A DNA stretch of 20,934 bases from a virus, in the IMG/VR virus record IMGVR_UViG_3300008116_000689, positions 1-20,934 of that record. One strand, written 5' to 3'. Position numbers and translations under genes: made by a program. Shown here in pieces: positions 10,808 through 20,934 of this stretch. The notes beneath the pieces were generated by a model. The model had not been told where the DNA came from and searched no databases. It saw only the letters and a program-made list of their open reading frames with translations. The stretch's first letter is position 1. Each line of letters begins with the position of its first letter.

Positions 10808-12541
10808 TTAAACGCTTTGGACTACAATCCAGTCGTTATCGTAATACTTTACACCATTTTCTGTCAAAGACAATGACGAATCATTGGCTTCTGTAGATAT
10901 ATTTGATGCATATATACCGTAGTGATTTGCCGAACCTTCTTGGGTTAGTGTATTTTCATACAGGGATATATTTTGATAAAGGCTAGATTTAGACCCAGAC
11001 GGGCTGTAGTTGAAATTAATTGACCCACTTATGGGTTGTGCTAAATTAATACCTATAAAGTTTAAATCATTAAAATTTAATATATTGCCTATATTGGTTT
11101 CTGAAGATTTATCTACACCATTTACATAAATTGAGGATATATTTGTTTTTGATAAAGCCCCAGACGAGTTCCATGAAATCTGTGTAGATGGGGTTCCGCA
11201 AGAAATTAGCAGGCTTTGATCAGGTGAAGATGGGGTATAAAAAAATTCTATATGGGATATGTCTTTTTCTGTATTAATTAAAAAGCCAGAGTTATCGTAG
11301 GCTCTAATTCCGTTCCTAAAATCTCTAGAAAATAAAGGATAAACTTTTGATCCCAATGATATGTCGGTGTCTGAGGATATATAGTCTGATGAGTTTATAG
11401 AATATGTAGAATTATCATTATAAAAAGTCATTGCTAAAAAGCTTAGTCTTGGACTACTAACACTTGCATTGTCTGTGCTTAATGTTATTTTTAAATATAC
11501 AATTCTTTCTGAATCAAAATTATCTATAGTATATCCTGGTATTGGGGCTCCATTAATACAATTATTATATGTTGTGCCGTCTGTGCTTACTTCTACAGAT
11601 ATGCCATTATCTCCACCCCACTCTATTTTTGAAGAATTCATATTTGGTGCCAAGGGTAGGGAAATTATATCTTCTATTACGACTGTCTTTGAATCAGAAG
11701 AATCTGTTTTCAATATCTCTAAGTATTGTTCTTGGTTATTATAATGCAGATCCTCATTTATAAAATATGTCCACGGTTTGTTTCCTGGGTATGAATAATA
11801 ATATTTTGTTGATATGTTATTATCGTATATTTCAAAAATGCTTGCGCCTTCTGGACCTCCGACTTGAATTGCTGGAACTTGTATATTTGAATTATAGTGT
11901 TCTAAAATACTGGATTGTTTTAAATCATATCTATACACTGCTGGAGAATCAAATAAAAAATAATCTCCTAATTCATTTGTTGGGCCTGACTGAAATGTTG
12001 TTGTTGAATTTGTTATTTCTGGAGTATTTGTAACGTATGAATAAGATACAACTTTTCCATCAATATATAGATAAATTGCTGAAACAGAATAAACTCCAAC
12101 TACGTGGTAGGACTTTTTTAAATTTAATAATTTATATACACATTCGTATTGACCAAATTTAAATTTTAAATTGCCATTTTCATAAAAAATTCCTGCGTCT
12201 CCGTCTGCAAATACTGGAACCTCTGATGAGTCTGATATGTTTGGAGCAAACCAGCACTCTATTGAAAATGAACTGTCTAAAGAATTTATATTTGCAACTC
12301 CGCCACTTCCAACAACTCCGTAGTAATTCTTTGTTATTGGAAAAGAAATATATTTTGATGAATTAATTTTATTGCTAACAACTCCTCCAATAACTAATGG
12401 TGGATTGTTATCTGATACAGCTTCGCTAAATGTTCCATTATTTCCTGCTCCAGAGTAGTCTATAGCGGATGTGCCAGATAGCTCGTCTAATTTCCAAAAG
12501 CCTATCGGGTTATCTTTTAAAACTCTAAAGTAGTAGGACAT
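10808..12541 (-). CDS. LamG / concanavalin-like phage structural protein (probable tail or receptor-binding role)
   Basis: The product has 577 residues from the ATG at 12541; a GTG at 12559 would add six residues but overlaps the dehydrogenase gene with no ribosome binding site. The first ~210 residues fit a LamG-type jelly roll: YYFRVLKDNPIGFWKLDE, IDYSGAGNNGTFS, then SSFSIECWFAPN, a short strand pair, and AIYLYIDGKVVSYSY. These domains usually bind carbohydrate or mediate adhesion. A second strand-rich region (about 225-390) holds ISVEVSTDGTTYNNCINGAP, and a third (about 430-560) again looks LamG-like (ISHIEFFYTP ... SIYVNGVDKS ... QPISGSINFNYSPSG). Composition is rich in Ser, Asn, Tyr and Ile, common for fibres. 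It follows the accessory operon by only 7 bases, suggesting shared expression. The role in host recognition is inference. Confidence 0.75.
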   Translation of the reverse strand: MSYYFRVLKDNPIGFWKLDELSGTSAIDYSGAGNNGTFSEAVSDNNPPLVIGGVVSNKINSSKYISFPITKNYYGVVGSGGVANINSLDSSFSIECWFAPNISDSSEVPVFADGDAGIFYENGNLKFKFGQYECVYKLLNLKKSYHVVGVYSVSAIYLYIDGKVVSYSYVTNTPEITNSTTTFQSGPTNELGDYFLFDSPAVYRYDLKQSSILEHYNSNIQVPAIQVGGPEGASIFEIYDNNISTKYYYSYPGNKPWTYFINEDLHYNNQEQYLEILKTDSSDSKTVVIEDIISLPLAPNMNSSKIEWGGDNGISVEVSTDGTTYNNCINGAPIPGYTIDNFDSERIVYLKITLSTDNASVSSPRLSFLAMTFYNDNSTYSINSSDYISSDTDISLGSKVYPLFSRDFRNGIRAYDNSGFLINTEKDISHIEFFYTPSSPDQSLLISCGTPSTQISWNSSGALSKTNISSIYVNGVDKSSETNIGNILNFNDLNFIGINLAQPISGSINFNYSPSGSKSSLYQNISLYENTLTQEGSANHYGIYASNISTEANDSSLSLTENGVKYYDNDWIVVQSV

Positions 12542-12548
12542 CTTTATA

Positions 12549-13241
12549 TTATACCCCACCTATACTTATTGACTCACCTATAATGCTAGAAGATCTTTCA
12601 TCCATCAAAAGCTCTACAACATTTGCAATATCATCAACAGTAAACATTTTTTCTATTATCTGTCTAGATACACCAGCCTCTGCCATTTGAGCAGGCATAA
12701 ATCTAATAAAATTAGTTCCTATTGGTCCTGGGGCAATACAGTTTGGTCTTATTTTTGTTTTACTGACCTGCTTTGCAATTGATTTTGTAAGAGACTCTAC
12801 TGCGGCTTTTGAAGCAGAATACATAGAAGCTTCATTTGTTATAGTTGCTGCCATGCTGGACATTGTAATTATTGGAGTGTGCTTATTTGTATCCATCAAT
12901 GGGATAAATGCCTGACAAGCGTTAAATACTCCTTTAACATTTGTATCAAGGACATTATAAACTTGTTCTGGAAAAACGTATTTAATTGGAGAATTATGAT
13001 ATACGCCAGCGCAATTGATTAGGGCCTCTACCGTTTTTCCTTCTTTACGCAGCTCATCAGAAATTTTATATAGCTCATTAATATTACGGACATCTGCTTT
13101 ATAGTACCTAAATTTATCTTCATGTTTATTTTCATACTGCTCATATTTTGAAACACCTACTATTTCATATCCTTTAGACAATAGTCTATCTGCTATTGCC
13201 TTTCCTATACCGCTTGCGGATCCAGTTACGACTACGGTCAT
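12549..13241 (-). CDS. Short-chain dehydrogenase/reductase (classical SDR)
   Basis: The product has 230 residues, a full classical SDR. Visible motifs are the dinucleotide-binding TGSASGIG (6-13), an Asp at 50 in KADV, NCAG (77-80), the structural Asn101 in DTNVKG, the catalytic Ser128/129 in TMSSM, YSASK (catalytic Tyr141 and Lys145) and PGP (171-173). All catalytic residues are present, so it should be an active NAD(P)H oxidoreductase acting on a hydroxyl or keto group. The best general resemblance is to FabG-like 3-ketoacyl and sugar/alcohol dehydrogenases; the substrate cannot be told. No Asp follows the second strand (VGVSK), which slightly favours NADPH. The start overlaps the upstream gene by ATGA. 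Placement behind four oxygenases and a glycosyltransferase suggests it completes the same pathway. Confidence 0.9.
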   Translation of the reverse strand: MTVVVTGSASGIGKAIADRLLSKGYEIVGVSKYEQYENKHEDKFRYYKADVRNINELYKISDELRKEGKTVEALINCAGVYHNSPIKYVFPEQVYNVLDTNVKGVFNACQAFIPLMDTNKHTPIITMSSMAATITNEASMYSASKAAVESLTKSIAKQVSKTKIRPNCIAPGPIGTNFIRFMPAQMAEAGVSRQIIEKMFTVDDIANVVELLMDERSSSIIGESISIGGV

Positions 13242-13891
13242 TCTGTTCCGTCCGAATAATACGGCTGAGTTCTATTGTGATACCAGTTAGGTAGTGCATA
13301 TCTTGTTCCTTTTGTTATTGCAGAAACCTCATGAATATAAATATAGTTTGATGGGAAAAATAATAAACTTCCAGCCTCTGGCTTCATGTCGATATCACAA
13401 TGTGGGAATCTAATATTTCCGCCATCGTAATCGTCATTAAGGTATAGCAGAGCTGACAATACCCTGCTGCTAATTCCATGATCTGAATGTGCTGGGAGAA
13501 AGCCTGCTTCTTTATATTTTAATAAGTGCATAGTTTTTTCCCTAGATTTTATATTTTTTTGTGCATATGGATATATTGAAAAATAATCATTTAATCCTTT
13601 TTCTAAACCTCCGAACAGCGCTTCTGAAATTTCTAGTTGCTCTTTATAGAATTTATCGGAAGTGGGAATGTCTTCTGGTTTAGGTATAAATTTTTGCCAA
13701 CAGAAAACTGTTCTTTCTTTGCCACCCTGGTCATAATCCCATGGTTGCCACGGTCTAACAAACAAAGACTTGTATTCTGGAGAATCTGCTCTTTTATTTT
13801 CTAAAGCCTCTATTTTACTTATTAATACATCTGGATCTGGAATTATATTTTTATAATAAACCATTCCTAGTGCTAGTATATCTCTTTCCAT
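13238..13891 (-). CDS. 2OG-Fe(II) dioxygenase, prolyl-4-hydroxylase type (second of two)
   Basis: The product has 217 residues and belongs to the P4Hc-type double-stranded beta-helix oxygenases. Iron ligands are His135 and Asp137 in PAHSDHG and His187 in YIYIHEV; Arg197 in KGTRYALPNW should bind the 2OG carboxylate. LYLNDDYDGGNIRFPH (149-164) is the hallmark strand-turn of the family. It should couple 2OG and O2 to hydroxylation of a protein side chain, sugar or small molecule. The ~110-residue N-terminal region (WQPWDYDQGG, CWQKFIPKPEDIP) is aromatic and may recognise the substrate. AAGGA lies six bases before the start, which is coupled to the preceding oxygenase by TAATG. With its neighbour it forms a tandem of related but clearly different enzymes. 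Similar genes are known from T4-like cyanophages, without known substrate. Confidence 0.88.
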   Translation of the reverse strand: MERDILALGMVYYKNIIPDPDVLISKIEALENKRADSPEYKSLFVRPWQPWDYDQGGKERTVFCWQKFIPKPEDIPTSDKFYKEQLEISEALFGGLEKGLNDYFSIYPYAQKNIKSREKTMHLLKYKEAGFLPAHSDHGISSRVLSALLYLNDDYDGGNIRFPHCDIDMKPEAGSLLFFPSNYIYIHEVSAITKGTRYALPNWYHNRTQPYYSDGTE

Positions 13892-14433
13892 TAGCAGTCC
13901 TTAAAGTCTGGATCAACAAACTCTTTTTGAGTTGATTGCATAAATAATGCGGTGTATCTATTACCGCTAATAATTTCTTTTACACCGTGTAAGTATTCGT
14001 ACTTGTTTCCTGGAAAAAATATTGCAGAATATTTTAATGGTCTATGTTCAAAATTTTGTTTTGGGAAATAGATTTCTCCACCTTCATAGTCATCGTTTAA
14101 ATATATAACAGTGCTATATTCTATAAATGGTTCTTTTTCAATAGCGTCTATATGAGGATTTCCTTTGGTGCCTGGAACCCATCCAGACCCGAATGCTTTG
14201 GTAACAATAACGCCCTTATCTAAATTAAAAAATTTCTTTTGAACAAGGTTTGCTCTAATGGCATGCTTTTTTAATATGCTCATTACTCTGTCATTGTAAG
14301 GTAATGCTGTTCCGCCATTACGATTTTTATAATATTCTGGATATGGATTTATTTCTGAAGGTCTTTGTATTTCTTCAATTAACGCAAGTGCGTCTGATTC
14401 AGCTATAAAATCTTCTACAATTTTTATCATCAT
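13891..14433 (-). CDS. 2OG-Fe(II) dioxygenase, prolyl-4-hydroxylase type (first of two)
   Basis: The product has 180 residues, essentially one P4Hc-type domain. The iron-binding triad is His94 and Asp96 in GNPHIDA and His149 in EYLHGV; Arg159 in SGNRYTALF is the 2OG-binding basic residue. VIYLNDDYEGGEIYFPKQ (109-126) matches the same strand in the next gene, so the two are paralogues. The N-terminal MIKIVEDFIAESDALALIEE is the usual entry helix of this group. All catalytic residues are intact and an active hydroxylase is expected. The start overlaps the methyltransferase stop by ATGA. No signal peptide or membrane segment is seen, so it should act in the cytoplasm of the infected cell. Confidence 0.88.
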   Translation of the reverse strand: MMIKIVEDFIAESDALALIEEIQRPSEINPYPEYYKNRNGGTALPYNDRVMSILKKHAIRANLVQKKFFNLDKGVIVTKAFGSGWVPGTKGNPHIDAIEKEPFIEYSTVIYLNDDYEGGEIYFPKQNFEHRPLKYSAIFFPGNKYEYLHGVKEIISGNRYTALFMQSTQKEFVDPDFKDC

Positions 14434-15146
14434 TGTGATGGATGTGCTCCTTCTACTATTAATACAACTTTAACATCTCTAAATTGATATGCTCGAAAAT
14501 CTGGGGTCTTGCACCATTCTAACATATCAGAAGCTTTCTTTGTAATAATTCTTTCTATTCCTTCTGTTAAATCAATGCAAATACAAATTTTTCTTTCTGG
14601 ACCTATTATTTCGTTTAACCACTCTACACTCATTCTAACATTTATAATTTTATCAAAATATATAGTTGTTCTTTTTTCATTTTTTAGAACTGTATATACC
14701 TCTAACGCTTCTTTATAATTTTGTGGAGCATCTGAATCAAATATAAATTTTACTGTTTCTAGTCCAGATACGCAGAGAGCTGCTATTGGGGCAGACGGAC
14801 CTGGAATTACGGTAATATTTAAATTAGAATCAACAACAGATTTTACAATTTCCCAGCCTGGATCATGTATTAGAGGCATCCCTTCATTAGATAATAATAA
14901 AACATCTTTTCCTTCAATAATAGTATCGTGTACAGTTTTTATAACCTTTTCTGGATTATGCATTTCTGGTAAATAGTTTATTATCTCTGCCTTATACGCT
15001 TTTTTATTTTTATCTAGAAAGTTTTTGAAAGCAGTGCCATGTTCGGCTACAATCAGGTCTACGGACTCGATGGCCTCTATGGTTCTTTGAGGAATATCTT
15101 TAAAATTACCTATCGCCACTCCACCTACTATTAATTTACCAGCCAT
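14430..15146 (-). CDS. RsmI-like SAM methyltransferase (tetrapyrrole methylase fold), lacking the usual C-terminal domain
   Basis: The product has 238 residues and aligns by eye along the catalytic part of RsmI, the 16S rRNA C1402 2'-O-methyltransferase: KLIVGGVAIGNFKDIPQRTI (4-23), VDLIVAEHG (29-37), EGKDVLLLSNEGMPLIHDPG (78-97), VIPGPSAPIAALCVSGLE (113-130) and VKVVLIVEG (225-233). These are the SAM-binding and domain-joining motifs of the tetrapyrrole methylase superfamily. Differences from bacterial RsmI are the loss of Pro in the PIGN motif (AIGN), AEHGT in place of AEDTR, NEGMP in place of DAGTP, and the absence of the last ~45-50 residues. The substrate may therefore be the ribosome or something quite different. 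It is coupled to both neighbours (TAATG and ATGA). A host-derived gene acquired by the phage is the simplest origin. Confidence 0.82.
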   Translation of the reverse strand: MAGKLIVGGVAIGNFKDIPQRTIEAIESVDLIVAEHGTAFKNFLDKNKKAYKAEIINYLPEMHNPEKVIKTVHDTIIEGKDVLLLSNEGMPLIHDPGWEIVKSVVDSNLNITVIPGPSAPIAALCVSGLETVKFIFDSDAPQNYKEALEVYTVLKNEKRTTIYFDKIINVRMSVEWLNEIIGPERKICICIDLTEGIERIITKKASDMLEWCKTPDFRAYQFRDVKVVLIVEGAHPSQ

Positions 15147-15967
15147 TAGTTTATTATCCTTGTCTTGTTAATGTATCTGCTGCCACCAATTTTATCGGTT
15201 TGAGACCTTGCTAAATCATAAACCACGTCATCTCCATCAAAAGGCAATTTTTTAATTTCAATTCCATAAATATCTAAAATTGATTCTTTATTTTTTTCAA
15301 CAAACTTATTGTATCCATGATAAAGAGAAAATGGAACATATTGAATATTATTTAATGGCACCGTTCTATTTATTAAAAAATTAGTTGGCATTGACATAAT
15401 TTTAGAATGTTTAAAAAATATAGAGACCTCTTCATCCTCTCCATAATATTTTAAATATTCTGGAAATATAACTCTTTTAAAATCTGAAGATAGGCAAAAT
15501 AAAAAATCTTTGTCTATGCACTTATTATATTCAAAATTTTCTGATTCTATTTTTTTATAATCAATAATAAATTGATTTTTATTAAATGGAACTAGCTTGT
15601 GGTTTCCAGATATGACGGTTGTGTTTACATATTTTACTTCGTTCATTTTATTAATAAGATCTAAATCCCAGTTGCTGTTAAGCTCTATTCCGTCTCCACA
15701 AACCATAAAATATTTTTTATTTAAAATTCTAAAGGCATCTTTTTTATATGAAATAGGGCTTTTAATAGAGTCCCACTTAATATATTTATAAACAATTTTA
15801 CAATGAGATAAATCTATACTAATATTTCTAGATCTTTCAATATTATTTTGGTCTACTACATAAAAATATAAATTATTTAAACCACTTGATTTTATGGCAA
15901 TATCGGATAAGTTTTCAATTAATTTTTTATTTTGAAAACTATAAATATAAATTCCAATATCTTCCAT
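15146..15967 (-). CDS. GT-A glycosyltransferase, GlcNAc-transferase-like (GT60-type)
   Basis: The product has 273 residues. The pattern resembles the PF11397/GT60 group: an N-terminal strand-helix unit (GIYIYSFQNKKLIENLSDIA), LYFYVVDQN (33-41), YFMVCGDGIELNSNWD (86-101) in place of the DxD/DSH sugar-nucleotide and metal site, and YYGEDEEVSIFFKHSKIMSM (174-193), which matches the GEE..S.R....G segment before the acceptor site. It would transfer a sugar from a nucleotide donor, in GT60 members GlcNAc onto hydroxyproline or serine. The coding sequence is notably AT-rich with long A/T runs, more than its neighbours, suggesting separate acquisition. No membrane segment is seen. It starts in a TAATG overlap with the oxygenase gene and shares its stop base with the next start. 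Substrate identity is not proven, but hydroxylation plus glycosylation genes side by side is suggestive. Confidence 0.68.
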   Translation of the reverse strand: MEDIGIYIYSFQNKKLIENLSDIAIKSSGLNNLYFYVVDQNNIERSRNISIDLSHCKIVYKYIKWDSIKSPISYKKDAFRILNKKYFMVCGDGIELNSNWDLDLINKMNEVKYVNTTVISGNHKLVPFNKNQFIIDYKKIESENFEYNKCIDKDFLFCLSSDFKRVIFPEYLKYYGEDEEVSIFFKHSKIMSMPTNFLINRTVPLNNIQYVPFSLYHGYNKFVEKNKESILDIYGIEIKKLPFDGDDVVYDLARSQTDKIGGSRYINKTRIIN

Positions 15968-16668
15968 TAGTCAAGCATTACCCAAACGCTTCCATCATCC
16001 AGTCTTCCACCTGGGACTGGTGTAATGTCGTATGCTATAGTAATTCTGCTTTCTTCTAGTCGCCAGTCATCTCTTCCATGCGGATGACCAGTTTCGGAAA
16101 GAATTGCACGATCATTTTTATTGATATTTTCAAAAAGAGTTTCGTTATTTATTTTATAATAAGTAATTGATGGTTCTGCATTTACACAGTAATAGCCGTG
16201 AAAATTTGGAGCGCCACTTCCATCTAAATGATCATGAAAAAACTTTTCTTGATTTACTGGATTAATACTTTTTTCTTCTCTAATTTTTTGCTCAAGATTA
16301 AACCATCCATGAATCATATATTTTTGCTCTTCGTAATTTACTCCGTAATATTCACATGCTTCTTTTACCATGCTGCGTATTGCGTCTTTTAGCTTATGCA
16401 TCTCTGGGTAGTCATAACTAAATACGTTATAGGATTCTCCTTTTCTTGTAGAAAATCCGTCCCAATTAATCCTACTTAATAGCATTATTATATTTTGATT
16501 ATTTTGACTCATTCTTTGTGTTGCTGTTTGATTTTCATCATCTCTTTGTGTAATTTTATCAATTTCAGCCAATATCATTTCTTTATTTTTTTCCACAAGG
16601 TACTTATTTAAAGCAACAACATCTATTCCTGGATATTTTTCAAAAAATCTATGTTCTTTTTTTGTCAT
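15967..16668 (-). CDS. 2OG-Fe(II) oxygenase, 2OG-FeII_Oxy_5-like (paralogue 2)
   Basis: The product has 233 residues. KYMIHGWFNLEQKI is followed by the metal motif FFHDHLD (His145, His147), then PNFHGYYCVNAEPSITYYKI, and the distal GHPHGRDDW (His195/His197) with Arg208 in SRITIAYDI for 2OG. This is the HxH...H...R order of the family found widely in marine and freshwater phages. It is a close paralogue of the gene just upstream: GYYCVNAEPS, TGHPH/MGHPH and the KYMI.GWFN block are shared, and both begin with a K-x-H-+-FFE+Y motif. It also carries extra inserts before HDH (about 127-141). The ATGA overlap with the upstream paralogue indicates a local duplication kept in one operon. Active enzyme expected; substrate unknown. 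Confidence 0.83.
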   Translation of the reverse strand: MTKKEHRFFEKYPGIDVVALNKYLVEKNKEMILAEIDKITQRDDENQTATQRMSQNNQNIIMLLSRINWDGFSTRKGESYNVFSYDYPEMHKLKDAIRSMVKEACEYYGVNYEEQKYMIHGWFNLEQKIREEKSINPVNQEKFFHDHLDGSGAPNFHGYYCVNAEPSITYYKINNETLFENINKNDRAILSETGHPHGRDDWRLEESRITIAYDITPVPGGRLDDGSVWVMLD

Positions 16669-17312
16669 AACAATGGTATCCAGTGCTGCTGTCCTGCATC
16701 TGAGTTTATAATGCTTTCTAATGGCATTACGTCATATGCAATTGTTACTCTTGGGCCATCCCAGTCCCAGTCTCCCATAGCGTGTGGGTGTCCCATTTCT
16801 GAAATAATCATTCTGTTATTTTTATTATGGTTATCTACCTGTTCCCCAAAAACACGATAATACGTTACTGATGGTTCTGCATTTACGCAGTAATAGCCGT
16901 GAAAATATGGAGCATATGGTCCGCCGTGGTCATGCCAGTCTAGTTTGCCAGTGTGGTTGTAGTTAATGTTAAACCATCCCTGTATCATGTACTTTTGTTT
17001 ATCAAAGTCTAGATCGTAATAAGCACATGCTTCTTTTACTGTATCTGAAATTGATTTATATAAATTATAAATTCCATCGTGATAAAACTGAAATACGTTA
17101 TACTCTCGCCATTTAATAGTAGAAACGCTTGCAGAAGATAGCCAAAAATCTTTTTGGTTTACCTGTGATATTCCCTTAAGCTTTAAATTTTCCATGTCGA
17201 CATATTGTTTTTGTAAAAATCTTGATAGATCTTCAAGATTGTTGTCTAGGTATCTTTCAAAAAACTTATGGGGTTTTCCACTAGGTTTATTTAAAAATGG
17301 ATTCATCTCCAT
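16665..17312 (-). CDS. 2OG-Fe(II) oxygenase, 2OG-FeII_Oxy_5-like (paralogue 1)
   Basis: The product has 215 residues from the ATG at 17312, chosen over the more distant start at 17369 because AAGGA lies seven bases upstream and the alignable domain (KPHKFFERY) starts soon after; another ATG at 17306 is possible. QKYMIQGWFNINYN leads to the metal motif DWHDHGG (His127, His129), PYFHGYYCVNAEPSVTYYRV, and the distal MGHPHAMGDW (His175/His177) with Arg188 in GPRVTIAYDV. All residues expected for iron and 2OG binding are present. The C terminus ends in WIPLL, matched by WIPLI in the degenerate relative at 19467-20027. It overlaps the upstream gene by 26 bases. A cytoplasmic dioxygenase; hydroxylation is the default reaction of the family. 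Confidence 0.84.
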   Translation of the reverse strand: MEMNPFLNKPSGKPHKFFERYLDNNLEDLSRFLQKQYVDMENLKLKGISQVNQKDFWLSSASVSTIKWREYNVFQFYHDGIYNLYKSISDTVKEACAYYDLDFDKQKYMIQGWFNINYNHTGKLDWHDHGGPYAPYFHGYYCVNAEPSVTYYRVFGEQVDNHNKNNRMIISEMGHPHAMGDWDWDGPRVTIAYDVMPLESIINSDAGQQHWIPLL

Positions 17313-18066
17313 TAGATATTCCTTTTCTGTACTGTTTACGTTGCCATATATAGTTTTTATAATATGCAAATATTGAAATTCTTCTTCTTTCTTCTTTTAC
17401 TTTATTTAGTTCTATAGAATCTATTGTATAGTCTACTTCCATATTCCAGGATTCTCTTTTTATTGGCACCATCTGGAATATAGGTGTTCCTTTTGGTATT
17501 GTTCCAATAAAATTTCTTTTTAGAAAAAATGCTGTAAATACTGGAGCATGCCATTTATCTGTATCTATTATCCCAGAAAGAGTGGTGAATGGCAAGTCAT
17601 GCCTATTAAATGGATGTGTAATTAACATTGAATATCCTGGGGGTGTTTCGCAATACCAATTTACTTTCCATCCAAAATGTAATGGGTGGTGGAATGTGGG
17701 GACCGCAACATCAATCATAGATCTTTTATCAACTATCATTGAATCACCCTCCCATGATAGGGTTGGAAATCCTTGTGGGTCTAAATCTACGTGTAGGTCA
17801 TAATCAAGGCTAAAGATATATCCAGATGTGAGTGTGTCTAAAAATGGCATACATAATTTTGTAGACGCTGCGCTTCCGTCTGTGCCCATATTGTTTACTG
17901 GGTGCAACTTAGAAATATTATTAGATTTTTGAAACCTAGATAGCCTTCTGTACCAGTCTGGTAAAAAATTTACCGATGGCTCAGGTTCTGAAACATAGTT
18001 ATCTTTATTAACAAAAAAATTATTATCAGTAATTGCTGGAGTAAATTTTATTATTAAATCATCCAT
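17287..18066 (-). CDS. Uncharacterised phage protein, DUF6065-like (paralogue b)
   Basis: The product has 259 residues and no known activity. The N terminus (FLPDWYRRLSRFQKSNN) is followed by TKLCMPFLDTLTSGYIFSLD (69-88), a strand-rich middle, and the signature TPPGYSMLITHPFNRHDLPF (141-160), LSGIIDTD (163-170) and KGTPIFQMVPIKRESW (192-207). The order PPGY...P.NR....LTG..+TD...F...G.P....P..R is reminiscent of DUF6065, and similar proteins occur, as far as I recall, in T4-like cyanophages and metagenomic phages. The repeated glycine turns suggest a beta-helix or cupin-like barrel, but no conserved His-x-Asp iron site is seen. It is clearly a paralogue of the gene at 18754-19470 and lies directly before an oxygenase of family 5, so a joint function is likely. 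The start at 18066 overlaps the upstream gene by 8 bases. Confidence 0.65.
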   Translation of the reverse strand: MDDLIIKFTPAITDNNFFVNKDNYVSEPEPSVNFLPDWYRRLSRFQKSNNISKLHPVNNMGTDGSAASTKLCMPFLDTLTSGYIFSLDYDLHVDLDPQGFPTLSWEGDSMIVDKRSMIDVAVPTFHHPLHFGWKVNWYCETPPGYSMLITHPFNRHDLPFTTLSGIIDTDKWHAPVFTAFFLKRNFIGTIPKGTPIFQMVPIKRESWNMEVDYTIDSIELNKVKEERRRISIFAYYKNYIWQRKQYRKGISNGDESIFK

Positions 18067-18757
18067 TAAATAATCTCTCCATATCTTCTTTTGTTAATTC
18101 AACTTCAATTTCATATAAATTGCTTCCACGTTCTATGACCCCACAAGTTTGCGTAACCATATTGTCTTTAAAATTAGTAAAATAAAAATCAACATAATTT
18201 GCTTCATTTATTGGTTTATTTATATTTTTAACAAACTTATCTGTCTTTTCTATTATGCTAACAGAGTTTCCATTTTCTGTTTGCTTTATTTTATAATCAA
18301 CGTCTATGTCTAAAACCCAGGGTATGTAGAATTTAAAAACTCTGTCTGACATAAAGCTTTCTGTATTTATATTGTACGTATTCAGTGATGGATAAAATTG
18401 TCTCTGCCAGCATTTGTCAGTTGCATAAAATAATGTTCTAATTGGATTAGGTTTAAAAATTCCTTTTTCTCCCATTGGCGGATCAACAATCTGAATAAGA
18501 ATGTCTGAATAATTTTTATATATTAATGTTATTTTATTTTCAGAAATTTTCTTTATCTCTGGTTTAATTCCAAAATGGTGGACATACATGTTTATTGGCT
18601 TTAAAATTGAATTTCCATATTCTTTATTTACTTCTTCCCACAATGACCATTTTGTAAACATGTTGGAGTATCTCATTATTTCTTCAAAAGACATTGAACT
18701 CATTTCGTTCCATGCGCTTGATTCGTAAGGTGCTCTTGGTATTTTTATATTATTCAT
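18059..18757 (-). CDS. Hypothetical protein between the two DUF6065-like genes
   Basis: The product has 232 residues and I do not recognise it. The first ~60 residues are predicted helical and aromatic (EEIMRYSNMFTKWSLWEEVN). Then come alternating strands: IKKISENKITLIYKNYSDIL, a proline-rich turn IVDPPMGEKGIFKPNPIR, RVFKFYIPWVLDIDVDYKI (about 139-157), and YVDFYFTNFKDNMV near the C terminus. The all-beta tail resembles a receptor- or tube-type structural fold in composition only. No metal motif, signal peptide or membrane segment is visible. It overlaps both neighbours (ATGA upstream, 8 bases downstream), so it is made together with the paralogous pair that flanks it and could be their partner subunit. 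Function unknown. Confidence 0.6.
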   Translation of the reverse strand: MNNIKIPRAPYESSAWNEMSSMSFEEIMRYSNMFTKWSLWEEVNKEYGNSILKPINMYVHHFGIKPEIKKISENKITLIYKNYSDILIQIVDPPMGEKGIFKPNPIRTLFYATDKCWQRQFYPSLNTYNINTESFMSDRVFKFYIPWVLDIDVDYKIKQTENGNSVSIIEKTDKFVKNINKPINEANYVDFYFTNFKDNMVTQTCGVIERGSNLYEIEVELTKEDMERLFNG

Positions 18758-19470
18758 TTAAATGTTTTTTTAGACCACATTTTTTTTCTGTATCCATTTT
18801 GAAATACAGATCTTACAGATAATTGGTTTGCTCTATTTTTTTCATCTGATTTTTTATCTTGATTCAAAGAGCTTTCCCAATCTTCTCTTTTAAATGGAAT
18901 AACCTGAACTATTGGAGTTCCTTGTTTAATAATACCTTTAAATCCTTTTTCTACAAAAAAAGATAGGTAGCCGTCTGAAGGATATTTATCTGTGTCTACC
19001 AAACCTGGTATCGCCTGTATGGGACTCTTATCTCCATGTATTGGTGAAATAAATAAACTGCTGTATCCCTCTGGTGTTTTTACAAGCCACATGGGATGTA
19101 TTCTTAAAACACCTTGATGAAAATATGCTGGAATTGGATATTCTTTAATTTGTTCCTTTAAATGATGTGCAAGTAGAAATTTTTGAAATTCCATAACGTC
19201 ATTGGTTACTTCAAATTTTAAAATATCTTCTGTTGCATCTATATATAAATCTGTAGGACAAAGAAGGTAATAACCAAATGATAGTGCATCAAATACAGCT
19301 TGGCATTTCTTAACCGTAAGAAGCATATTTCCGCTATAAACATTGTTATCATTGTTTAAATAACTTTCCTGCCTTTTCCACCATTCTGGTATATGCGATT
19401 GTATTGGAATTGGACTTGGAAATATCTTTTCAAATGATCTATATTTAGGTATAAACTCTATTTTAATCAT
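18754..19470 (-). CDS. Uncharacterised phage protein, DUF6065-like (paralogue a)
   Basis: The product has 238 residues from the ATG at 19470; an ATG at 19485 is also in frame, but 19470 gives the ATGA overlap used throughout this operon. It shares with the protein at 17287-18066 the blocks IPEWWKR (28-33), CQAVFDALSFGYYLLCPTDL (56-75), TPEGYSSLFISPIHGDKSPI (132-151), IPGLVDTDK (154-162), KQGTPIVQVIPFKREDW (182-198) and a basic C-terminal tail (SVFQNGYRKKMWSKK). Differences include HG in place of NR in the P.NR motif, suggesting it has diverged. It follows the degenerate oxygenase, while its paralogue precedes an intact one. Biochemical function unknown; no signal peptide or membrane segment. 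Confidence 0.65.
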   Translation of the reverse strand: MIKIEFIPKYRSFEKIFPSPIPIQSHIPEWWKRQESYLNNDNNVYSGNMLLTVKKCQAVFDALSFGYYLLCPTDLYIDATEDILKFEVTNDVMEFQKFLLAHHLKEQIKEYPIPAYFHQGVLRIHPMWLVKTPEGYSSLFISPIHGDKSPIQAIPGLVDTDKYPSDGYLSFFVEKGFKGIIKQGTPIVQVIPFKREDWESSLNQDKKSDEKNRANQLSVRSVFQNGYRKKMWSKKTFK

Positions 19471-20027
19471 ATTAAAGGTATCCATTTTTGATAATACTGT
19501 CTATGTAAGTATTCTAATGGAGAAGCGTTAAAATACAAAATGGTTAATTCTTTGCTCATTTTACTAAACGTTACCTTCTCTTCTGGGTCTAATAATAACA
19601 TTAAGCCTGGCTCTAAGTCAATATCTTTTCCTTCAATATTAATTTTATCTAAATTTGAAGAAATTACATATATTCCACAAAATTCTACTTTAAAATTAGG
19701 TGCCATTCTTAGGGCTACATCTTTTTGTATTTTTTCGTTATCTAAAATATTACCTAAAAGATAGAAATAGTTTCTTTCAAAATTAATATTTTTTTCAATA
19801 CATCTTTCTTTAATTTGTAAACTAATTTCTTTATAAAGCTTATATATTTCTGTATTATACATGCTAAAAAAATTAAATGTTCTATAGTCTATTAAGGATA
19901 TCTTTTTTGGCTTTATTGGAATTCTGACTCCACGTTTTGAACTAATAGTATACTCGTGCATGGAATCAAGCATTTTAAAATAACTTGATTTTAAATATTC
20001 GTTATTTATTGTTAATATTTTTTTCAT
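19467..20027 (-). CDS. Degenerate 2OG-oxygenase-like protein without iron ligands
   Basis: The product has 186 residues. It aligns with the two family-5 oxygenases downstream: YRTFNFFSMYNTEIYKLYKE (48-67) with YNVFQFYHDGIYNLYKSISD, the FERNYFYLLGNI segment with FDKQKYMIQGWFNI, MAPNFKVEFCGIYVISS (108-124) with YAPYFHGYYCVNAEP, and the closing WIPLI with WIPLL. The catalytic residues are missing: the HDH position reads VAL, the GHPH position reads DPEE (147-150), and the Arg of the last strand is Glu160. The beta-helix skeleton seems retained (KINIEGKDIDLEPGLMLLLD is a plausible strand pair). It is therefore probably a non-enzymatic binding, structural or regulatory subunit. The gene is intact, starts directly after the upstream TAA and overlaps the next gene by ATGA, arguing against simple decay. 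Confidence 0.6.
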   Translation of the reverse strand: MKKILTINNEYLKSSYFKMLDSMHEYTISSKRGVRIPIKPKKISLIDYRTFNFFSMYNTEIYKLYKEISLQIKERCIEKNINFERNYFYLLGNILDNEKIQKDVALRMAPNFKVEFCGIYVISSNLDKINIEGKDIDLEPGLMLLLDPEEKVTFSKMSKELTILYFNASPLEYLHRQYYQKWIPLI

Positions 20028-20642
20028 TTATTCCCATGTTCTAATAGAATGCCAAACGGCTGGAACCATTGGGTCTTGTGTATAACCCATGTCATTATCC
20101 AATATCATTTCGGAGGAATTCCCAATTACCTCTGTCATTGCTTTTTTATTTAATCTATTTTTACCTTTAAATAGCATTATTGATTCTGCTGCTTGAGTTT
20201 GCATTTCATATGCAGTTGTAGTTGCAGATTTGCCTTGTTGAACTCTTATTCTATAATAACCCCAAAAAACTGTATACCCTAATATAGCTAAAGATAGTCC
20301 TATTTTTTTTCTTCTGTATACTGGATCGCAATAAAGCCTATCAATTACTGCAGTATAATAGTTATCTTTTTTATTGTGCCCTGTCAGAATTATATTTGCC
20401 CAGGCTGTTGGGTATTCATTATTTATAAAATTAGAAAATACCAGTGTTCCTGAAGGTTGATTGTTATTAAAATATAATGTCTCTAGAGCCCTATGCCCGT
20501 ATTGATCATCGCATAATGTCCACTGACACCAGGATCCCTTTATGTAATCAGGATATTTTCTAAATAATGGAAATATAAAACCATTTTGTTTTTTGGTTCT
20601 ATAGAACCCCATTTTATTTATATGCTTAAGTAACTTAAGCAT
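20028..20642 (-). CDS. GNAT-like acyltransferase (N-acetyltransferase fold)
   Basis: The product has 204 residues. The most convincing part is YTAVIDRLYCDPVYRRKKIG (101-120) followed by LSLAILGYTVF, which matches strand 4 and the acyl-CoA pyrophosphate loop of GNAT enzymes (consensus YRGKGIGSAL), except that the first loop Gly is Lys. The preceding beta-strands (ALETLYFNN, GTLVFSNFIN) and the later KSATTTAYEMQTQAAESIML helix also fit. It would move an acetyl or other acyl group onto an amine, possibly an amino-sugar or a protein. The start is uncertain: ATG 20642 lies in a palindrome, has no ribosome binding site and gives MLKLLKHINK; ATG 20612 gives MGFYRTKKQNG. No further motif defines the substrate. 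Confidence 0.55.
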   Translation of the reverse strand: MLKLLKHINKMGFYRTKKQNGFIFPLFRKYPDYIKGSWCQWTLCDDQYGHRALETLYFNNNQPSGTLVFSNFINNEYPTAWANIILTGHNKKDNYYTAVIDRLYCDPVYRRKKIGLSLAILGYTVFWGYYRIRVQQGKSATTTAYEMQTQAAESIMLFKGKNRLNKKAMTEVIGNSSEMILDNDMGYTQDPMVPAVWHSIRTWE

Positions 20643-20654
20643 AATTTATTATGC
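20624..20654. repeat. Two abutting palindromes at the start of the acyltransferase gene
   Basis: GCATAAT-TT-ATTATGC (20639-20654, 16 bases) and GCTTAAG-TAA-CTTAAGC (20624-20640) are both perfect inverted repeats and overlap by two bases. They cover the stop of the upstream gene and the first codons of the next one. They may form tandem hairpins controlling translation or bind a dimeric regulator. No T-tract follows, so a terminator is unlikely. Confidence 0.55.
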
Positions 20655-20934
20655 TGGTGGGTTATCGTCTGAAGCTGAGGAAAGTTTCCACTGCTGATAT
20701 AGTGACTCTAGTGATTGTGCAAGACTTTGGTCTGAATTTGTAATAACGTTTGGTGAATCAAGTTCTAGTCTTTGTGAGTCGTGAACAAGGGCGTTATCTG
20801 TAAAGAATACGTCGTAAGGTTCACAGTTGATTGTTATAACAAGTTCTGATCCAGAAGAAACTCTGTTTTCAATAACTGGCTGCCAATCATTAAATGTTGG
20901 CGAATAAATTAAATCGGATTCTAAAACTTGATCC
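20649..20934 (-). CDS. C-terminal part of an unidentified protein (starts outside the window)
   Basis: From base 20933 a single frame is open to the TAA at 20651-20649, giving the last 94 residues of a protein. The chain has VSSGSELVITINCEPYDVFF, a strand pair typical of beta-rich structural proteins, then NALVHDSQRLELDSPNVITN and an amphipathic helix LAQSLESLYQQWKLS before a polar tail ending DDNPPA. Codon use is more G+C-rich than in the accessory genes that follow. It might be a tail or fibre component, but this is a guess. It ends six bases before the acyltransferase start, so the accessory operon may be read from a promoter beyond the window. Confidence 0.6.
   Translation of the reverse strand, partial: DQVLESDLIYSPTFNDWQPVIENRVSSGSELVITINCEPYDVFFTDNALVHDSQRLELDSPNVITNSDQSLAQSLESLYQQWKLSSASDDNPPA

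Follow-up and report, generated by a model that had tools for sequence, protein, structure and literature searches.

In the Skp1 pathway of Dictyostelium and Toxoplasma, the prolyl 4-hydroxylase (P4H) PhyA acts first and Gnt1, a GT60-type glycosyltransferase (GT), then acts on the hydroxyproline. Mimivirus encodes a lysyl hydroxylase/glycosyltransferase that modifies its collagen, a viral repeat protein, and in gene clusters for ribosomally synthesized and post-translationally modified peptides (RiPPs), a core peptide in repeated copies is followed by the enzymes that tailor it. Here we analyze an operon of twelve minus-strand genes in the 20,934-base virus record IMGVR_UViG_3300008116_000689 (this whole stretch is called the window), whose products include two P4H-type enzymes (P4Ha and P4Hb), two further putative oxygenases (oxyA and oxyB), a GT60-like transferase and two DUF6065 proteins. 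We consider it probable (roughly 0.7) that this operon is a maturation cassette for a tail-fiber-type adhesin encoded directly upstream, whose repeat tail it hydroxylates and, where the cassette is long, also glycosylates. An original prediction, made from the letters of the window, had assigned these genes to one pathway modifying a protein or glycan on the virion or host surface; our data support this and sharpen it to the upstream repeat tail as likely substrate, although subsets of the genes also occur, as does a second setting with no such repeat alongside.

The Skp1 pathway may be the nearest working analogy and mimivirus collagen modification the nearest viral one. Like the former, the phage cassette combines a P4H-type enzyme with a GT60/PF11397-like transferase, but it is a phage operon known here from its genes, its candidate target is a repetitive tail rather than one proline, and it has oxyA/B, DUF6065 and a dehydrogenase (SDR) in addition. 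As in mimivirus, a virus brings its own 2-oxoglutarate (2OG) hydroxylase/glycosyltransferase along with a repeat structural protein; the phage repeats, however, are Phe/Pro rather than Gly-X-Y, and five portal-anchored loci with collagen-like, Pro-rich repeats (L036, L043, L074, L374 and L402; L-numbers denote loci and G-numbers, such as G001 and G003, whole records) have no oxygenase, so collagen was dropped as a candidate substrate. RiPP clusters likewise have a repeated core and tailoring enzymes, the phage core being the tail of a fiber-type protein, in which no leader peptide was noted, though no search aimed at one was made.

Cyanophages carry comparable 2OG-Fe(II) oxygenase/PiuC genes, and a P4H-type gene lies among tail genes in three of six cultured records (S-CAM7, ACG-2014f and P-SSM2). 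There, however, it is a single gene, the repeats in the stretch are collagen-like rather than F/P, and neither DUF6065 nor Hint was seen; in the other three records no annotated tail-fiber gene adjoins the oxygenase that was matched, and in one of these, S-H9-1, another oxygenase lies next to a tail assembly chaperone. Cyanophage Sf-FS3 (PV340856.1, L431) has four P4H-type genes in a stretch near the neck gene, mixed with carbamoyltransferases, a phosphoheptose isomerase and a PfkB-domain kinase. We know of no substrate for the phage oxygenases of PHROG 61. Phages that infect marine bacteria are described as widely carrying these 2OG-Fe(II) oxygenases (PMC12774648). In a 2014 study of marine phage islands, 8 of 390 genes are Fe(II)-dependent oxygenases, which are grouped with host recognition, and the section concerned names no substrate (PMC3909814). 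Among the matches listed by our literature searches, to which this absence is limited, no such repeat-tail/enzyme system was described; of the papers searched, none names DUF6065 and one, on yeast enzymes, contains "FGFTP".

Co-occurrence of the repeat gene and the cassette

The cassette lies between a tail-fiber-type gene and the LamG and portal genes. At the window edge stands an open reading frame (ORF) that is the end of a gene running past that edge, and 83 of its 94 residues are identical to the C-terminus of L084:7539-8837, in the closest relative found (portal 99% and DUF6065a 92% identical to those of the window). The L084 repeat gene encodes 432 residues, in which a fibronectin type III (FnIII) domain (PF00041, 1.4e-8) and a C-terminal domain accompany the run FSFAPFGFTPFGFTPFGFTPFGFTP; in relatives the repeat is of the type PF(G/S)F(T/S) and forms a C-terminal low-complexity tail. 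Because the window cuts this gene, the tail was invisible to the original prediction.

Two portal-anchored sets were drawn, each of the best 80 loci listed by portal similarity, with the cassette disregarded, and loci were kept if they had 7 kb upstream (35 + 32 = 67); L042, whose contig starts inside its cassette, was removed, leaving 66. Of these loci, 32 have oxygenases as well as a Phe/Pro repeat, counting L065, which has a Val-Thr-Pro-Pro (VTPP) repeat instead; 34 have neither and none has one alone. The portal tree implies 11 changes, and 10/10 independent pairs are concordant (p 0.002). In five loci the repeat was scored by reading: in L333 from the short repeat tail, and in L356, L365, L366 and L403 from the gene directly upstream of the oxygenases, at the locus edge or past it. 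The oxygenase-free loci carry, among others, glycine-rich or collagen-like fiber genes.

From the repeat side, an enzyme-free DNA pattern for two PFGF(T/S) units retrieved 114 stretches from IMG/VR, in which same-strand cassette genes were scored with hidden Markov models built from cassette orthologs (oxyA/B, the apparently dead oxyA relative ox11, P4H or DUF6065). A cassette gene lay within 3 kb downstream of 57 of the 63 repeat genes with enough sequence (34/36 after dereplication, or 32/36 for the oxygenase families alone, ox11 included), and within 3 kb upstream of none (0/55; dereplicated, 0/25). Comparison ORFs of at least 200 residues in the same stretches had a cassette gene downstream in 125 of 299 cases, many of these ORFs probably standing just ahead of or within the same cassettes. 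In the related phages analyzed, enzymes and repeat tail come and go together, which suggests that the enzymes modify the tail.

Set against the random combinations and loci expected of independently carried genes, gene order is conserved in long cassettes and gene presence tracks the repeat gene, although smaller sets occur too (one to three oxygenases, or DUF6065 alone), as does the second setting described below. Minimal units of a single repeat gene and a single oxygenase also exist.

Repeat type and enzyme class

Among deduplicated, portal-bearing loci with an assigned class, an FGF-type repeat is accompanied by oxyA/B in 45/45, and an FFxPP-type repeat by P4H homologs without oxyA/B in 14/14. 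Repeat type matches enzyme class in all 59 assigned loci, a set that includes loci first found via enzymes or repeats, and in 6/6 independent pairs (p 0.031). The portal-anchored sets alone give class splits of 13/13 and 18/18, with the VTPP locus standing apart. Seventeen further portal-bearing oxygenase loci had no assigned repeat class and were excluded; in 11 of them the cassette starts at most 1.1 kb from the locus edge, and the other six are L108, L169, L173, L109, L065 and L170. On reading, L108, L169 and L173 (all with oxyA/B) and L109 have Phe-rich tails, and L065 has its VTPP repeat and no oxyA/B.

Phages with two repeat genes (L262 and the contigs of L227/L223 and L236/L285) have a single P4Hb behind one of them and oxyA behind the other. 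In L019, L053, L030, L365 and L408, the FFxPP-type tails are followed by five to seven P4H homologs and DUF6065b, and a conserved protein of ~240 aa ending in (F/Y)YRDAVD/N...HE.K is encoded as well.

The repeat protein

By reading, the repeat is joined to several kinds of N-terminal part, and in L084 the gene preceding the repeat gene encodes an Mtd_N tropism-determinant domain (6.7e-10). Codon pairs between repeat units of 60 distinct arrays show 2959 synonymous versus 779 non-synonymous differences. The resulting N/S of 0.26, compared with 3.19 for random single changes (the pairs are non-independent, hence no p-value is attached), indicates that the repeat is conserved as a peptide, beyond its DNA.

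The C-terminal domain of the L084 protein is predicted to have an intein (Hint) fold: a model built from 46 sequences (predicted local distance difference test, pLDDT, 89.5) matches bacterial intein-like (BIL) domains, inteins and hedgehog with Z 17.5-13.2 among the 50 matches listed, the best being BIL2 (Z 17.5, root-mean-square deviation (rmsd) 1.7, 133 residues aligned) and hedgehog reaching Z 16.6. By automatic residue picking, a block-B-like His is present in 39 of the 49 repeat proteins with a long C-terminal part (see below), a Ser or Cys occupies the nucleophile place in 40 (S 26, C 14), and the domain ends in HN in 14 and in HD in 22. The predicted fold is that of BIL and hedgehog Hint domains, but the phage domain ends an F/P-repeat fiber-type protein and closes more often with HD than with HN. 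Since 15 of 64 complete, dereplicated repeat proteins stop within 34 residues of the repeat and the other 49 carry at least 120 residues past it, cleavage by the Hint domain would leave the repeat close to or at the C-terminus of the mature protein in either form.

Three repeat proteins had no match in cultured phages at E 1e-5 with the low-complexity filter on. A bacterial collection of 84,980 genomes held 16 stretches with the repeat pattern, four of which read PFGF(T/S) twice in an open frame; in one of these four, L418 (a 3.2 kb contig of a metagenome-assembled genome), DUF6065 adjoins the repeat.

Proposed mechanism and alternative explanations

In the mechanism that we propose, the P4H-type and oxyA/B enzymes would hydroxylate repeat residues of the upstream protein, proline being the most likely P4H target, and in the long version the GT60-like transferase would glycosylate the hydroxyls so formed, or Thr/Ser. 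The SDR, the GNAT-like protein and the optional methyltransferase may trim the product, with DUF6065 (predicted dUTPase fold), the conserved protein unk9 and ox11 as possible helpers. In most repeat proteins the Hint domain would cut itself off just past the repeat, and the modified tail would be displayed on the virion and serve host contact. A bolder version, which we hold tentatively and at less than even odds, is that a RiPP-like unit of core repeat plus tailoring enzymes sits in the tail fiber, that repeat and enzyme set co-evolve as matched pairs, and that the Hint domain releases or couples the tail. If such pairs can be exchanged, host range would vary through chemistry as well as through protein sequence. 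The matched pairs point to a concrete candidate substrate, the short repeat peptide of the neighboring gene. If the enzymes do act on it, these phages hydroxylate and glycosylate adhesins of their own, which would account for the place of such genes in host-recognition islands, and modified repeat materials of a new, genetically encoded class would be at hand. Giant viruses offer a precedent for a virus that hydroxylates and glycosylates its own repeat protein, which matched pairs of repeat and oxygenase would extend to the adhesins of phages.

Several observations weigh against modification of the tail. The repeat is not inside the window and is known from relatives only. The repeat trait was defined during data reading, was unequal between the portal sets and was scored by eye in five loci; under an earlier definition, L065 (VTPP, Phe-free) and L042 scored as having an oxygenase without an F/P repeat. 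Two repeat genes have no enzyme within 3 kb, namely L206, with just a weaker P4H match (2e-6), and the first of two in L245. None of the 45 oxyA/B members matches another curated oxygenase family or, at E<=1, PF13759, so the 2OG-FeII_Oxy_5-like label originally given to this pair did not survive. P4Hb alone follows the repeat in 5 of 35 FGF-type repeat loci (L227, L262, L265, L267 and L303), and in L262 and the contig of L227 a second repeat gene and then oxyA are also present. In the second setting (e.g. L143, L160 and L174), the oxyA family adjoins a NodU-type carbamoyltransferase-like gene, in L160 and L174 in the order unk9-D6065b-oxyA-GT-P4Ha (with P4Hb as well in L174), and no FGFTP repeat lies alongside, the pattern being absent from records G001, G002 and G005. 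This setting also adjoins a gene for a proline-rich protein; in G001 a gene for a (PTPEP)n protein lies upstream at a distance of a few genes, and both G001 and G003 have an (FGA)n gene with a Hint-like ending near the portal, with DUF6065a alongside. Finally, DUF6065 occurs without an oxygenase in eight portal-anchored loci (L006, L011, L032, L043, L075, L331, L355 and L362). Because of the second setting, the oxygenase-free DUF6065 loci and the P4Hb-only loci, the enzymes are not bound to the FGF repeat in every genome.

In an alternative explanation, the product of the enzymes would be a small molecule, or their target a glycan of the phage or the host surface, altered for instance to prevent superinfection; they would share a hypervariable host-recognition island with the tail-fiber genes and not act on the repeat. 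The GT, SDR, GNAT-like protein and methyltransferase would suit glycan chemistry, as would the carbamoyltransferase-like neighbors in the second setting and a nucleotidyltransferase-like gene that, by reading, stands by the cassette genes in L143, and the Fe(II)-dependent oxygenases listed in PMC3909814 occupy marine phage islands with host-recognition genes. A glycan target does not predict, however, that the enzymes vanish with the repeat (0/66 discordant), that repeat type matches enzyme class (59/59) or that one repeat gene and one oxygenase form a minimal unit, and we regard it as unlikely. If the repeat gene and the enzymes were instead exchangeable island blocks that travel together with no functional link, the lower G+C content of the cassette relative to the structural genes (0.312 vs 0.363) would be understandable, as would the enzyme-free glycine-rich fibers that some relatives hold at the same place; but the pairing persists with different N-terminal parts and different enzyme sets, across 10 independent contrasts and with enzyme class matched to repeat type, which makes hitch-hiking improbable.

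Base J and glucosylated 5-hydroxymethylcytosine likewise arise through an oxygenase paired with a glycosyltransferase, so DUF6065, the oxygenases and the GT might act on a DNA base or nucleotide in a JBP/TET-like manner, and the DUF6065 model does match dUTPases. Hypermodification nonetheless seems very improbable: P4Ha and P4Hb match P4H-type families best, with a Tet-like chain appearing only weakly in the P4Hb search (E 0.005), and the genes lie among late structural genes and track a protein repeat. Hydroxylation of the upstream repeat tail is the reading we prefer.

Genes of the cassette

The originally proposed operon, which lies on the minus strand, was confirmed in its coordinates and overlaps, nearly all adjacent genes overlapping (Table 1); its eleven genes are actually twelve, unk9 having been absent from the first list. 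D6065b and oxyA (window 17287-17369) overlap by 26 bp if oxyA begins at ATG 17312 and by 83 bp with a TTG start; the former is probably the real start, as orthologs such as that in L084 suggest. The distance of 7 bp between the SDR and LamG genes, noted earlier, holds if LamG starts at ATG 12541. The LamG protein is also present in portal relatives without oxygenase (L007, L024, L048 and L064); it is therefore a core gene of these phages, outside the function of the operon, and was dropped as a candidate substrate.

Table 1. Features of the cassette and its flanks, with window coordinates.
Feature	Position	Strand	Basis
Upstream FnIII-repeat-Hint protein, last 94 codons (C-terminal part of Hint-like domain and tail)	20649..20933	-	Open ORF; identity to L084
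GNAT-like protein (weak)	20028..20642	-	PF00583 E 0.0074, under cut-off
ox11, putatively degenerate oxyA/oxyB paralog	19467..20027	-	hhalign to oxyA; His not conserved
DUF6065 protein a (D6065a), predicted dUTPase fold	18754..19485	-	PF19541, PHROG_7084, model
unk9, conserved, 232 aa	18059..18757	-	ORF; orthologs in repeat loci
DUF6065 protein b (D6065b)	17287..18066	-	PF19541 just under cut-off; PHROG_7084 4.2e-36
oxyA, putative Fe(II)/2OG-type oxygenase	16665..17369	-	Invariant His/Arg pattern
oxyB, oxyA paralog	15967..16668	-	40% identity to oxyA; same invariant residues
GT60-like glycosyltransferase (PF11397-type family)	15146..15967	-	Family members match PF11397
Tetrapyrrole-methylase-family methyltransferase, RsmI-like, optional	14430..15146	-	PF00590 1.3e-20
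P4Ha, probable prolyl-hydroxylase-type 2OG oxygenase	13891..14433	-	PHROG_2297 6.7e-16, PHROG_61 7.5e-16
P4Hb, probable prolyl-hydroxylase-type 2OG oxygenase	13238..13891	-	PF13640 1.9e-15
SDR dehydrogenase	12549..13241	-	PF00106 5.2e-43; N101, Y141, K145
LamG protein, outside cassette count	10808..12559	-	PF13385 2.1e-10, PHROG_11584

Profiles and iron ligands identify P4Ha and P4Hb as probable prolyl-hydroxylase-type 2OG/Fe(II) oxygenases, in agreement with the original prediction of two P4H-type enzymes. P4Ha has no Pfam match and is recognized by PHROG profiles instead; H94, D96 and H149 of its HxD..H..R motif are present in 45/45 rows of at least 38% identity and R159 in 98%, and its best matches among solved chains are prolyl 4-hydroxylases (5e-4). 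P4Hb scores 58 bits against PF13640 (cut-off 27) and retains H135, D137 and H187 in 64/64 rows at the same identity threshold, the 2OG-binding basic residue not being among the columns conserved at >=95%; the solved chains that it matches best belong to prolyl 3-/4-hydroxylases (3e-6 to 5e-5).

OxyA and oxyB are putative oxygenases by their HxH..H..R motif only, with H146, H148, H157, H196 and R207 invariant in the 45-row alignment (HxH, not HxD). The family has one weak match to PHROG_81 (0.013) and is linked through 11/45 members to PHROG_2696, a family without assigned function, and cultured phages gave no oxyA match at E 1e-5. Ox11 aligns to oxyA (prob 96.5, E 8.5e-10 by hhalign), its 22 rows share no conserved His, and so it appears, as first proposed, to be a catalytically degenerate relative of oxyA/oxyB.

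The GT60-like assignment is supported for the family, 14/34 of whose members match PF11397 at E<=1 (best 1.6e-7), although the window protein itself is unmatched. The GT is present in 17/35 dereplicated repeat loci, with no clean pattern by which Thr versus Ser in the repeat would decide its presence. The methyltransferase found in 2/35 of these loci belongs to the tetrapyrrole-methylase family and is RsmI-like, but its scores stay well short of both RsmI cut-offs (113.6 vs 502 and 103.4 vs 167.9 bits). The GNAT-like label finds a PF00583 match of 17 bits, under the cut-off of 20.7; 15/35 loci have an ortholog of this gene no more than 8.5 kb downstream of the repeat gene. The SDR call is secure, its N101, Y141 and K145 being invariant in 21 rows. 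Unk9 has no convincing family match in profile searches and has orthologs in 17/35 loci; its likeness to DUF6065 is weak (prob 41, 37 columns) and is not taken as homology.

Of the two DUF6065-like proteins, D6065a exceeds the PF19541 cut-off (30.4 vs 26.6 bits) while D6065b, at 23.9, does not; both belong to PHROG_7084. DUF6065 is predicted to have a dUTPase fold, as all 50 matches listed for its model (pLDDT 86.8) are dUTPases (best Z 9.8, rmsd 5.0, 128 aligned), with a best Foldseek E of 3.3e-4 (dCTP deaminase) and modest template-modeling scores by query (0.23-0.41). Residues of the GIIDTD and GTPxxQ stretches are partly invariant in 64 rows, and we take these stretches to sit at the places of dUTPase motifs III and IV. 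Searches of the Protein Data Bank sequences with the DUF6065, GT and oxyA/B profiles returned nothing useful. In L011:1806-6349 and L006:2717-7262, the oxygenases upstream of LamG-portal are replaced by DUF6065, an unk9-like protein and two flavoproteins, which flank DUF6065 and on reading resemble tryptophan halogenases.

Genomic context

The other structural genes of the window, also on the minus strand, encode the portal, a head maturation protease, a capsid-type protein and a head-tail adaptor. The best cultured relatives of the portal among the matches listed are Streptomyces phages of Stanwilliamsviridae (~58-60% identity), from which an actinobacterial host can reasonably be inferred; two cultured phages, StarPlatinum and Muntaha, have no annotated oxygenase in the 12-14 kb upstream of their portals. 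DUF6065 relatives occur in 50 cultured-phage records, mostly of haloviruses such as HF2. In HF2-like haloviruses (AF222060.2, L188, and relatives), DUF6065 lies a few genes from minor virion protein VP1, which has a predicted concanavalin A-like domain.

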